Shown one piece after another: positions 6,420 through 57,220 of a DNA stretch of 64,000 bases. Source of the stretch: Carnobacterium divergens (lineage in GTDB: Bacteria; Bacillota; Bacilli; Lactobacillales; Carnobacteriaceae). The stretch spans positions 2,354,835 through 2,418,834 of the forward strand of contig NZ_LT992558.1 of assembly GCF_900258435.1 (NCBI RefSeq), given 5' to 3'. The position numbers and the translations under genes are program-made. How positions within the stretch are numbered: position 1 is the stretch's first letter; the number at the start of each line of letters is the position of its first letter. The notes under the pieces are model-generated. The model was given only the letters and a program-made list of their open reading frames with translations, did not search any database and was not told where the DNA came from.

Positions 6420-6728
6420 AAAAACTCCCATCCCTAAATCAAGTTTCACTTGATTCAAGGACGAAAGTTTTGACGTTTCGTGTTACCACCTTGGTTTATT
6501 GATTCATCACTAAATCAACCTCAATCAGTACTTGAGCTTTCATGCAACTCGTTATACTGTGGCACTGTAACGGGTGCACCCGTAATAGATTTACGATTAT
6601 TCGCTCATCTACTCTGCTCAAAGACCATCTTCAGTTCTACGTACATTTCCTCTTTTCAGCTACCGAGGCTCTCTTATTAAATGCGTGTCAAAACTTACTC
6701 TTCTTATCATTGCTTTGTTATTTGAATT
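6420..6728 (-). promoter_or_regulatory. T-box leader of metNIQ (specifier AUG, methionine)
   Basis: On the minus strand a stem I region with GAGAGC and GGTAGCTGAAAAGAGG precedes a specifier loop reading GAAG-ATG-GTC (ATG at 6626-6628). The T-box core AAGGTGGTAACACG is at 6479-6492. A 12-bp terminator stem (CCTTGAATCAAG with CTTGATTTAGGG) and a T-run end at about 6420. Uncharged tRNA-Met should stabilise the antiterminator and allow transcription of metN. The same GAAG-codon context occurs in the second T-box of this window, supporting the specifier assignment. Confidence 0.92.
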
Positions 6729-53248: not shown

Positions 53249-53449
53249 AAAAAAAGCACTGACAAAAGTCAGTGCTTCTTCGACAGTATTTATTTGCATA
53301 AATAGGTCCCGTGAATTCCACAAAACAGAGGGGTCCAAACATCTACATCTTGTAGTTGTACTCGAAGTACATATGCCCTGCCTTTGTTCAATCACTAGCC
53401 GCCGCAGCGGAATAACTAAAAGTTATCTGATTGAGTCAACTCATCGCAT
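53249..53449 (-). ncRNA. Unidentified structured small RNA, about 200 nt
   Basis: No protein frame fits. On the minus strand the RNA can form: TCAATCA/TGATTGA enclosing two hairpins (GATAAC-TTTTA-GTTAT and CCGCTGCGG); TGTACT-TCG-AGTACA; CTACA-AGA-TGTAG; GTG-GAATT-CAC; TATTTA-TGCAAA-TAAATA; and a 9-bp terminator stem AGCACTGAC/GTCAGTGCT with TTTTTTT. A promoter precedes it at 53456-53484. Size would suit 6S RNA, but I cannot form the long closing rod that 6S needs. It lacks tmRNA, RNase P and SRP RNA hallmarks. It may be a trans-acting sRNA or a new class. Confidence 0.68.
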
Positions 53450-54567: not shown

Positions 54568-55974
54568 TTATTGGTTTACAACGGTTTCCTCGATTGATGC
54601 TTTTTTCACTTTTTGTTTTTGAATGCCAATTCCTGTGAACCCACAGAAAACGGTAATCACTGGACAAAGCAAGCAGAAAAATGCAAATGGCAAGTAATCG
54701 ACGGTTGGAATACTCAAAGCTCCTGCAATAAATACCCCACTAACACTCCATGGAACAAGCGAATTAACGACCGCTCCCGCGTCTTCTAACACTCTCGACA
54801 TCGCTAATGGGTGCAACCCTGCATCATCAAATGATTTTTTAAAGGCTTTACCTGGTAAGATAATCGACAGGTATTGTTCTCCAACTAACAGATTCACTCC
54901 AATACAAGAAAGTGCGGTTGCTAAAATTAATTTACCAGTTGAGTTCAATGAAGTGGATAAAGGTTTCATTACTGAATCAATGATTTTAAATTCCACTAAA
55001 AGTCCACCCAAGGCTAAGGCTAAAATAATAAGAGAGATGGACCACATCATACTTTGAACCCCACCACGTGTTAGCAAAGCATCAATGCTAGCATCTCCCG
55101 TTTGAGAAACAAAGCCATCTTGTAAAATAGACGATAATTCACTAAACTTGGTCATTGGTTTTTCAATGAAGAACATGACAACGGCTACAATGATGCTTAG
55201 AAGTAGTGTTGGAATTGCTGGGATTTTCCGCCATGAACAAAAGAACATGACAAGAATTGGGATTAAGGCAAAGAAACTAACTGAGAAGTTCGCTTTTAAC
55301 GTTTGAACAAGTTTCGTAATATCCGCTGTATCTGCATGCTGTTGACCGTTTCCTAAGATAAAGAATAAAACTAAGGCAATTAGCAGTGCTGGAATCGTTG
55401 TCCACATTAGATTTTTAATGTGACGGAATAAATCCACACCTGAAACTGCTGCTGATAAATTCGTACTGTCTGATAAAGGCGACATTTTATCGCCAAATAC
55501 AGCTCCTGAAACAATTGCTCCTGCTACTAAAGCTGGATTAAAGCCCATTGTGGTTCCCATTCCTAGTAAGGCAATCCCAACGGTTGACACCGTTGTAAAA
55601 GCACTCCCTATTGACGTTCCAACAATGGCACAAATAATAAAAACTGATGGGACAAAGATACTTGGATTTAAAATTTTAAACCCAAACACCATCATTGAAG
55701 GAATAATTCCTGCCGCAATCCAAACACCAATCAAGGCTCCAATTAAGATAAAGATAATCATCGGCACAAGACCCGTGGAAATTCCTTCTTGAATTCCTTT
55801 GTGGATATCGTCCCAAGAATGTTTTTTGATTCTTCCCCATAAGATTAATAATCCAATGGATATAATTAAAGGCGTTTGAGGTGCCACGCCAAACTTAATC
55901 ACACTTACCCCAATAATCAGTAAAATTAAAACCAGTATTCCTAACGCTTGTTTAAAACTTTGTTTTGTTTTCAT
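54568..55974 (-). CDS. NhaC-family transporter, predicted tyrosine importer
   Basis: 468 residues with about 11 membrane helices. NhaC-type sequences are 'GTSIGSAFTTVSTVGIALLG', 'GAIVSGAVFGDKMSPLSDST' and 'NLLVGEQYLSIILPGKAF'. The family includes Na+/H+ antiporters and Na+-coupled organic solute exchangers such as MleN. A T-box with a UAC specifier lies upstream, so expression should rise when tRNA-Tyr is uncharged. This points to tyrosine or a precursor as substrate and agrees with my memory of YheL-type genes under Tyr T-boxes. It is monocistronic. Confidence 0.88.
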   Translation of the reverse strand: MKTKQSFKQALGILVLILLIIGVSVIKFGVAPQTPLIISIGLLILWGRIKKHSWDDIHKGIQEGISTGLVPMIIFILIGALIGVWIAAGIIPSMMVFGFKILNPSIFVPSVFIICAIVGTSIGSAFTTVSTVGIALLGMGTTMGFNPALVAGAIVSGAVFGDKMSPLSDSTNLSAAVSGVDLFRHIKNLMWTTIPALLIALVLFFILGNGQQHADTADITKLVQTLKANFSVSFFALIPILVMFFCSWRKIPAIPTLLLSIIVAVVMFFIEKPMTKFSELSSILQDGFVSQTGDASIDALLTRGGVQSMMWSISLIILALALGGLLVEFKIIDSVMKPLSTSLNSTGKLILATALSCIGVNLLVGEQYLSIILPGKAFKKSFDDAGLHPLAMSRVLEDAGAVVNSLVPWSVSGVFIAGALSIPTVDYLPFAFFCLLCPVITVFCGFTGIGIQKQKVKKASIEETVVNQ

Positions 55975-56130
55975 CTTGTATCGCTCCTAAATAATTTTTT
56001 TGTTTTTCCTATGAATTATTTAGTCAAACGATAACTTGTTAATCCTCCATTGGTACACCTTAAACTTCCCATTTTACAGACCCCTTTCGTGAAACGTTTT
56101 TTATACGTTTTACTCGTTCCATTTTTTTAC

Positions 56131-56385
56131 ACTAAAAAGCCCCTGCTGTAATTTCTTACAACAGGGACGAATTTGATTATTCGCGGTACCACCCAGTTTA
56201 GAAATGAATGACTCATTTCTCGCTTCATTGGTGTAACGGACCTCTCCGTCTTTAGTTTCCTAAAGATGCTCCAAGTTTGTACTTCAAATAAAAATCCCGA
56301 TTGGTTCGCAGCGTCCACCAATTTTCTGAACTAAGATTTAGATTCTACTGTAACTCTTCAACGCGTTAAAGTATTGATGTTGATA
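56131..56385 (-). promoter_or_regulatory. T-box leader of the NhaC-family gene (specifier UAC, tyrosine)
   Basis: On the minus strand the specifier loop reads GAAG-TAC-AAAC (TAC at 56279-56281). The T-box core TGGGTGGTACCGCG is at 56182-56195. The terminator CCCTGTTGTAAG/TTACAGCAGGG with TTTTT ends near 56131. About 155 more leader bases, T-rich on the plus strand, separate it from the ATG at 55974. Confidence 0.93.
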
Positions 56386-56391
56386 AATTGT

Positions 56392-56420
56392 ATTTTAGCA
56401 CGTTCTATTCTAAAGGTCAA
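56392..56420 (-). promoter_or_regulatory. Promoter of the Tyr T-box transcript
   Basis: TTGACC (56415-56420), a 17-bp spacer ending in TGC, and TAAAAT (56392-56397), an extended -10 promoter. Confidence 0.78.
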
Positions 56421-56545
56421 TTTATTTTAATTTCTTTTTTTGTTAATGGATGCCTCCCCTTAATTTAAAAGCTTTTTAGTTTCTTTATTTAATCAATTTG
56501 TTATACTTAAACGTAACTAATCTATTCGTTAATGGAGGTGTAAAA

Positions 56546-57220
56546 ATGCCAACTAACAAAAAAATACTGATTATTGGTGGAAGTGGTTTTTTAGGGCAAG
56601 AACTTTGTTTGGCAGCCTTAAAGAAGGACTTTACGGTAGCCAGCCTTTCTAAACATGGCAAGCCAACCCATTTATCAAAAGAGCTATCCGACGCGCCAAT
56701 CGATTGGATTACCTGTGATCTTTTTGCTACCAATCAATTAGAAAAGATTATTAGTCAATTCGATATCGTTATTCATCTTGTGGCCATTCTCAAAGAACAG
56801 CCTAAAAAAGGACTTACTTATCAAAAAATGATTTTAGATGCAGCGATGATTGTTGGAAATGCTAGTAAAAATACAGCAATTGAACGATTTGTTTTTTTAT
56901 CTGCAAATGCTGGCAGTCCATTTATACCAAAAAAATACCTTGAAAATAAACAGCTTGCTGAAAATTACTTAAAGCGACTTCCGTTTCCTTTAACGGTCGT
57001 TCGACCTGGTCTTTTATATGGAAAAGGTCGGCCTTCTTCCTTAACGCTTGCAAATTTACTCTTTTTCTTTTTAAAAATTCCACTGTTGAAATGTTTTTTC
57101 ATTCCCCTCAAACCAACTCCTGTAACGGTTTGTGCAACGAACATTGTTGCTAGTTTAGACGACGTTCCAAAAAAAGCTTACCGGATACTAACACTTGAAG
57201 ACTTGCAAACTAAAACCTAA
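56546..57220 (+). CDS. NAD(P)-binding epimerase-like protein (atypical SDR)
   Basis: About 224 residues. The Rossmann motif is 'KKILIIGGSGFLGQELCLAA', followed by 'DIVIHLVAILKEQPKKG', 'IERFVFLSANAG' and 'FPLTVVRPGLLYGKGRP'. It resembles YfhF/NDUFA9-like atypical SDRs that bind NAD(P) without a full Tyr-x-x-x-Lys site. The start at 56546 is preferred to 56498 because ATGGAGGTG lies just upstream. The role is unknown. It stands alone. Confidence 0.83.
   Translation: MPTNKKILIIGGSGFLGQELCLAALKKDFTVASLSKHGKPTHLSKELSDAPIDWITCDLFATNQLEKIISQFDIVIHLVAILKEQPKKGLTYQKMILDAAMIVGNASKNTAIERFVFLSANAGSPFIPKKYLENKQLAENYLKRLPFPLTVVRPGLLYGKGRPSSLTLANLLFFFLKIPLLKCFFIPLKPTPVTVCATNIVASLDDVPKKAYRILTLEDLQTKT

Follow-up and report, generated by a model that had tools for sequence, protein, structure and literature searches.

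What does a protein of the NhaC family, a class named for Na+/H+ antiport, do when its gene is placed behind a tyrosine T-box? The question is raised by a locus in a 64,000-nucleotide stretch of the Carnobacterium divergens genome (contig NZ_LT992558.1; hereafter the window), for which a first-pass annotation had proposed that a Tyr T-box precedes the gene and that the transporter is more likely an importer or exchanger of tyrosine. Such pairings, and the assignment of a substrate from them, are already published: across six Firmicutes, Table 1 of Wels et al. (2008; PMC2494555) records seven NhaC genes with a Tyr T-box, and among them is one of the two NhaC genes of E. faecalis V583. Absent from the first reading is a second element, a leader ORF with a Shine-Dalgarno (SD) hairpin, at 55984-56072.

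The tyrosine T-box and its specifier

The nhaC transcription unit is encoded on the window's minus strand and runs from promoter through T-box, terminator, short ORF and SD hairpin to nhaC, with a divergent SDR-like gene upstream and hemH downstream. The promoter, found by eye with its letters checked, has a -35 hexamer TTGACC (56415-56420) and a -10 hexamer TAAAAT (56392-56397), separated by a spacer of 17 nt. Running the RF00230 covariance model on the leader bore out the T-box: the whole element, from Stem I to the antiterminator (56160-56370), matched the full model length (1-219) with 122.6 bits against a gathering score of 93 (E 1.2e-26). Its core, GGGTGGTACCGCG (56182-56194), carries the bulge UGGU, which conforms to UGGN and pairs with the discriminator A73 of tRNA-Tyr. 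The intrinsic terminator that follows, CCCTGTTGTAA-GAAA-TTACAGCAGGG and then CTTTTT (56134-56166), overlaps at its 5' end the 3' side of the antiterminator, giving two competing structures; the letters of core and terminator were likewise checked. As to the surroundings, the divergent neighbor (56546-57220, plus strand) is an SDR/NmrA-like gene, and a gene for a similar GGSGFVGQ protein stands directly 3' of nhaC in three other loci (L120, L126 and L133); a match to the Rfam Ref68/Lacto-3 RNA, an sRNA family named for Enterococcus, lies between an ArsR-like gene and hemH (53313-53448, minus strand, 71.1 bits).

For comparison, we collected 147 nhaC loci, among the matches listed, from 295 genomes of Lactobacillales, 116 of which have a match listed; the loci are mutually related and the counts drawn from them are not independent. 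In 92 of the 147, the 700 nt upstream contain a T-box core with at most two mismatches, as against three in a downstream and one in an antisense control. The leader alignment holds 90 rows, leaving out L109 (a tyrosine decarboxylase, or tdc, locus) and L167 (with an NhaC 33% identical), each with two mismatches in the core, and retaining L113 and L116, which also have two. Beyond the order, a T-box was found in 15 of 60 chosen nhaC loci; the specifier was first read by a UAY-requiring pattern in 9 and by eye in 6, and after alignment with the 90 it is UAC in 15/15.

The tyrosine specifier that had been read from GAAG-TAC holds in this wider frame. In the window, UAC occupies 56279-56281 in the context GAAG-UAC-A, and a UAY codon is found at this place in 90/90 aligned leaders (UAC 85, UAU 5). 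The single leader leaves the codon ambiguous: measured from the 3' GAG, the triplet would be ACA, a Thr codon, and the distance from codon to GAG is indeed 6 nt in most T-boxes of the genome, with UAC in the window leaving 7 (by eye). Yet the leuS, serS and pheS leaders likewise have 7 nt (by eye), the bases flanking UAY vary across the 90 leaders (U/A/G/C before, A/G/C/U after), and UGGU would be mismatched to U73 of tRNA-Thr(GGT); the bulge of the thrS T-box is UGGA, and a tRNA-Thr reading ACA was not among the tRNAs found. On the strength of the conserved UAY with its variable next base and of UGGU against U73, we dropped the Thr specifier, which we consider vanishingly improbable. The genome itself (2.8 Mb; 17 matches to RF00230, two nhaC genes) offers a further check. 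We read the specifier by eye, knowing the gene, as the triplet that starts 0-2 nt after GAA or at the corresponding position, and it is cognate in 11 of 12 tRNA-synthetase leaders (argS, valS, tyrS, leuS, cysS, ileS, serS, pheS, glyQ, thrS and alaS); the twelfth, hisS, reads GACAC, which contains both an Asp and a His codon. AUG stands at this place, again by eye, before the metN-like genes of the genome. The specifier of the window leader is cognate to the presumed amino acid of its gene, tyrosine. Apart from this, the window holds another T-box with the specifier AUG (6454-6719, minus strand, 102.3 bits; L009), which precedes a MetN-like methionine ABC transporter gene, and tandem T-boxes with AUG at both specifier places (by eye) precede a single metN-like gene at G000:C4:750832-751411 (L011, L016).

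The leader ORF and the SD hairpin

The second element came to light in a group of close relatives without a T-box (L025-L032), where a conserved ORF of 22 codons that has Tyr codons in tandem, MFLCNTTGGIAYYRMTNFTS.., stands alone right before nhaC. A relative of this ORF lies 3' of the T-box terminator in the window (56016-56072, minus strand), with 18 codons, MGSLRCTNGGLTSYRLTK, its own SD AAAGGGG and, as codon 14, the Tyr codon TAT (56031-56033, letters checked). Defining a leader locus as an SD followed by a small ORF encoding GGxxxY, which leaves L129 (CGRMIRY) uncounted, we found one in 44 of the 61 T-box loci whose core and nhaC are 100 nt or more apart (0.02 expected from shuffling) and in 8 of the 25 loci with neither T-box nor tdc (0.04 expected). 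There is none in the 29 T-box loci with less than 100 nt of room or in the 32 tdc loci, and none was found in the 60 nhaC loci outside Lactobacillales. The total is 52 loci, the window's among them, from 19 genera and 6 families, with 43 distinct peptides that are mostly of the form C-GG-Phi-x-RY; 17 of the 61 roomy T-box loci, and 46 of all 90, are without a leader as so defined.

GG and Y are present in all 43 peptides because the filter required both. Hence, we removed each in turn among the 61 loci: of SD-bearing small ORFs with RY, 36/39 have GG four residues earlier, and of those with GG, 45/46 have Y at the expected place. Among the 43 distinct peptides, 28 have C just ahead of GG, 30 have R just ahead of Y and five stop right after the Tyr. 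All four Gly codons are used at both Gly positions; with third bases thus free, selection acts on the leader peptide. The Tyr codon, by contrast with this freedom, is UAU in 52/52 leaders, as against 69-70% in flanking genes, and it is mostly single at the site, with two in 8 loci. The strict core C-GG-Phi-I-R-UAU, outside which the window's own variant falls, has 26 matches in the 295 genomes, all 26 upstream of nhaC (25 assigned by coordinates, one to a broken nhaC), and the reversed-pattern control has none. The YY form was also found by scanning the named genome contigs, at six places in Desemzia, Carnobacterium and Lacticigenium; five stand before long nhaC matches, and the sixth (L210) before a fragment. 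As a separate observation, an nhaC remnant with stop codons (L219, G096) still keeps a CGG-Phi-IRY leader.

Named database records contain the same arrangement. That of E. faecalis has a T-box (98.0 bits) and the leader MSCGGVIRYHKIL, with letters as in L092; those of L. curvatus and of an L. helveticus plasmid have the leaders MFKIASCGGILRYQSFVAPA and MERSTNGGLARY, respectively, each with a T-box recognized by core and specifier only, below the Rfam gathering score. The leader is absent from the gene tables shown for all three. In E. faecalis (L308 2959), the start annotated for nhaC shares bases with the stop codon of the leader, and the homology-based start lies 42 nt downstream, in frame, after AGAGGAG. 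An Rfam scan of 55900-56480 at E<=1 returned the T-box and a chance-level match to SSRC10 (19.4 bits, gathering 56), so that leader and hairpin are covered by no Rfam family. Among the open-access papers listed, we found none on a GGxxxY nhaC leader and, as far as the searched literature reaches, the ORF between the T-box terminator and nhaC is new. Taken as a prediction from comparative sequence data, the leader ORF is well supported.

The distal part of the element is a hairpin that takes in the SD of nhaC. In the window RNA, pairing sets in immediately 3' of the Tyr codon, CGUUU..CUAAAUAAUU pairing with AAUUAUUUAG-GAGCG. Its 5' arm, CTAAATAATT (56014-56023), is preceded by these additional pairs, and its 3' arm, AATTATTTAG (55987-55996), extends into the SD AGGAG (55984-55988, letters checked); the fold has a z of -3.8. 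Its statistics rest on per-sequence shuffles and controls. Complementarity of the 24 nt after the Tyr codon to the SD segment is significant (p<=0.05) in 29 of the 52 leaders, compared with 4/52 for the 24 nt before the codon and 1/32 for tdc loci. Fold energy reaches the same threshold in 29/52 leaders, 4/32 tdc loci and 17/46 T-box loci without a leader, the last group perhaps owing its folds to the inclusion of the T-box terminator in the stretch. By genus, the median complementarity p is at most 0.05 in 6/19 and the median fold z is below -1.64 in 7/19. The hairpin, as predicted from pairing, is thus firm in some genera, that of the window included, and weak or absent elsewhere; it is not universal.

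The transporter and its links to tyrosine

The gene behind this leader (54568-55974, minus strand, ATG at 55972-55974) encodes 468 amino acids, and its product passes the curated cut-offs of both TIGR00931 (428.3 bits, cut-off 370) and PF03553 (218.4 bits, cut-off 23). The second-best model, NF052307 for the arginine/ornithine antiporter ArcD, scored 348.4 bits, under its cut-off of 650; since the runner-up is of this kind, the NhaC family includes amino-acid carriers. Among solved structures (PDB) there was no sequence match to the window NhaC at E<=1, and an AlphaFold2 prediction from 4 sequences had a pLDDT of 33.

The genomic associations of the family point more directly to tyrosine. Of the 147 listed nhaC loci, 90 have a Tyr T-box and 32 adjoin a tyrosine decarboxylase gene, with none having both, although tdc linkage could be missed in L022-L051, where at most 1500 nt per side were at hand; of the remaining 25, 8 have the leader ORF and 3 adjoin tyrS. 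The second nhaC of this genome, whose product is 54% identical to that of the window gene, belongs to a cluster that also comprises tyrP, tdc and a pyridoxine-kinase-like gene; the cluster is divergent from tyrS, itself preceded by its own Tyr T-box. The tyramine cluster at L052 6500-12266 (minus strand) has a pyridoxine-kinase-like gene between the tyrosine decarboxylase gene and nhaC; a similar kinase gene accompanies TDC and nhaC in L082, L093 and, outside Lactobacillales, L241.

In a FastTree phylogeny of 206 NhaC proteins (which omits L147, of 389 aa; two duplicate G127 copies were not part of the nhaC sample), a clade of 141 rows contains 33 tdc-linked, 3 tyrS-linked, 8 leader-only, 89 of the 104 T-box and 8 unlinked rows, the remaining 15 T-box rows being those from outside Lactobacillales. 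Within this clade, the tdc-linked rows fall into a subclade of 40 and the window gene into the other, of 101 rows; the tree requires 12 changes of the T-box state and 2 of the tdc state. The tdc-linked proteins are not a strict single clade of their own, the smallest clade with all 33 being the one of 40 rows, which includes 3 tyrS-linked, 2 T-box and 2 unlinked ones.

The composition of the proteins adds a further strand. The window NhaC has 2 Tyr residues, both encoded by UAC, and T-box NhaC proteins of Lactobacillales have a median of 4 (0.85-0.89%), compared with 2.2% in tdc-linked NhaC, 2.2-2.5% in unlinked NhaC and 3.3-4% in the products of flanking genes. In 24/24 genomes (7 genera) that possess both, the T-box paralogue has fewer Tyr than the tdc-linked one (medians 5 vs 10; Wilcoxon p 1.7e-5, uncorrected for relatedness). 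Being nearly free of Tyr, NhaC could be made while Tyr-tRNA is scarce, and its low Tyr content is as expected of a protein needed under such scarcity, with relatedness and expression level as possible confounders. T-box NhaC proteins outside Lactobacillales are undepleted (2.04% Tyr), and both the depletion and the preference for UAC track clade rather than leader: leaderless T-box nhaC genes are also Tyr-poor, and the leaderless genus g22 uses mostly UAU. The idea that avoidance of UAU in nhaC is tied to the leader was not borne out by genus. In the tdc-linked nhaC genes (32 loci), UAU makes up 83% of Tyr codons, compared with 24-37% in the T-box paralogues.

Collectively, the conserved UAY in 90/90 leaders, the tdc and tyrS neighbors and the Tyr-poor T-box paralogue lend support to the earlier proposal of a transporter that serves tyrosine supply. 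Because tyrosine supply appears to switch its gene through the T-box and, apparently, through the leader as a second switch, the window NhaC is probably a tyrosine importer. Tyrosine auxotrophy as a background found no support: the genome has a prephenate dehydrogenase, and tyrosine uptake may therefore not be essential. Two close relatives without T-box, leader or tdc (L033 and L035) have before nhaC the near-palindrome TTTAACGCGKTAAAG, which resembles the first bases of the window T-box and could be a relic or an operator.

Proposed control by tyrosyl-tRNA charging and its alternatives

Based on these observations, we favor, as a likely if far from settled reading, an operon for an NhaC-family tyrosine-supply transporter that would be controlled twice in series by tyrosyl-tRNA charging, namely by the T-box at transcription and then by a Tyr-codon attenuator at translation. 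From the T-box anatomy, the Tyr specifier, the leader ORF and, in the window's genus, the SD hairpin, all of which are observed, we infer the switching function of both steps. Briefly, uncharged tRNA-Tyr would pair with the specifier UAC and the UGGU bulge to stabilize the antiterminator, allowing RNA polymerase to pass the terminator at 56134-56166. Ribosomes would then translate the 18-codon leader ORF downstream of it. When Tyr-tRNA is short, a ribosome would slow at the UAU at 56031-56033 and cover the hairpin 5' arm just 3' of it, leaving the nhaC SD, which lies in the 3' arm, free for translation of nhaC; its product, with 2 Tyr residues, both read from UAC, could still be synthesized under the scarcity. 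When tyrosine is ample, the ribosome would finish and depart, the hairpin would close and nhaC would stay untranslated. Pausing at the Tyr codon is probably aided by the conserved residues that precede it, namely GG and often C and R. Against this serial control stand the conservation of GG, C and R, which exceeds the need of codon-based attenuation, and the presence in most leaders of one Tyr codon at the site rather than a run.

Three other accounts deserve weighing. One would keep NhaC as a genuine Na+/H+ antiporter whose part in tyrosine-related states is merely to help keep ions or pH in balance. The top equivalog is after all TIGR00931, the Na+/H+ antiporter NhaC; passages of PMC6856193 and PMC12607914 call the nhaC-2 of tdc clusters a putative Na+/H+ antiporter of uncertain role, and a passage of PMC11477304 voices similar doubt on a lysine-riboswitch NhaC of C. 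difficile. However, there is no evident reason for ion exchange to be under Tyr starvation control, and an arginine/ornithine antiporter model comes second at 348 bits, though below its cut-off; we deem this account quite improbable. Another would let the T-box alone sense tyrosine, with the leader, a short translated ORF, serving only to couple its translation to that of nhaC. The 46 of 90 T-box nhaC loci without a GGxxxY leader and the hairpin's lack of universality agree with this, but the invariant UAU of the leader, the strict-pattern matches that all lie before nhaC and the doubled Tyr codon of leaders in relatives without a T-box make it unlikely.

The third takes the leader as an arrest peptide, the nascent ...C/T-GG-Phi-x-R-Y stalling the ribosome on tyrosine or a tyrosine-derived ligand and the stall setting the nhaC SD hairpin, much as nascent-chain arrest of TnaC occurs in response to tryptophan. 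It would account for the conservation of the residues before Tyr with their third bases free (C 28/43, R 30/43; GG 36/39 unfiltered), for the leaders that end immediately after Tyr (5/43) and for the keeping of leaders in genera without a significant hairpin. The tandem Tyr codons in T-box-less leaders and the fixed UAU favor a reading by codon, and we regard arrest as doubtful without dismissing it. In its general form, the thought that the GG-Phi-x-R-Y leaders are arrest peptides of a new family that senses tyrosine, so far seen only before nhaC in Lactobacillales and working with or replacing a T-box for the same amino acid, is one that we entertain tentatively, as a minority possibility.

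Set beside known systems, the serial control by charging that we favor has partial counterparts. The ErmC-type attenuator has a short leader ORF, a hairpin hiding a downstream SD and ribosome position as the switch. The window shares with it the short leader ORF with an SD and the SD-sequestering hairpin (z -3.8 in the window; 29/52 among relatives), and differs in its fixed Tyr codon, the tyrosine-linked gene, the lack of an antibiotic and the position behind a T-box. It likewise departs from classical his/trp/ilv attenuators in having a single Tyr codon and a hairpin followed by an SD, with no U-run. An exchange of T-box for leader peptide in Firmicutes is known for histidine, with the His leader of hisS/hisZ (described in PMC2965389), and a Leu attenuator peptide for the ilv genes of S. 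aureus (described in PMC5794164). Like the nhaC leader, these belong to Gram-positive bacteria and to genes which, in other species, carry a T-box; in contrast, they act, in the passages that describe them, on terminators and through several cognate codons, whereas the nhaC leader has a single UAU at the site (a pair in 8 loci) and an SD hairpin, and 44 loci combine it with a T-box. The systems of Wels et al. share with the window the T-box, the Tyr specifier and the NhaC family; a leader ORF or SD hairpin was not found in the consulted parts of PMC2494555. Lastly, the nhaC of tdc clusters (nhaC-2, EF0636), of which the 54% identical copy in this genome is an example, is of the same subfamily as the window gene but differs in being without T-box and leader (0/32) and in having more Tyr; the passages of PMC6856193 and PMC12607914 that treat it leave its role uncertain.

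These results offer a testable substrate for a class of transporters that annotation continues to label sodium pumps. They also provide a lead on nhaC-2, a gene of uncertain role in tyramine-producing clusters. If the proposed control is true, T-box and Tyr-codon leader would form an unusual pair of unlike charging sensors for one amino acid, arranged in series; if the arrest-peptide reading is true instead, two unlike sensors for one tRNA and its amino acid would be stacked on one mRNA. The relatives that have the leader alone suggest how one tyrosine sensor may come to replace the other.
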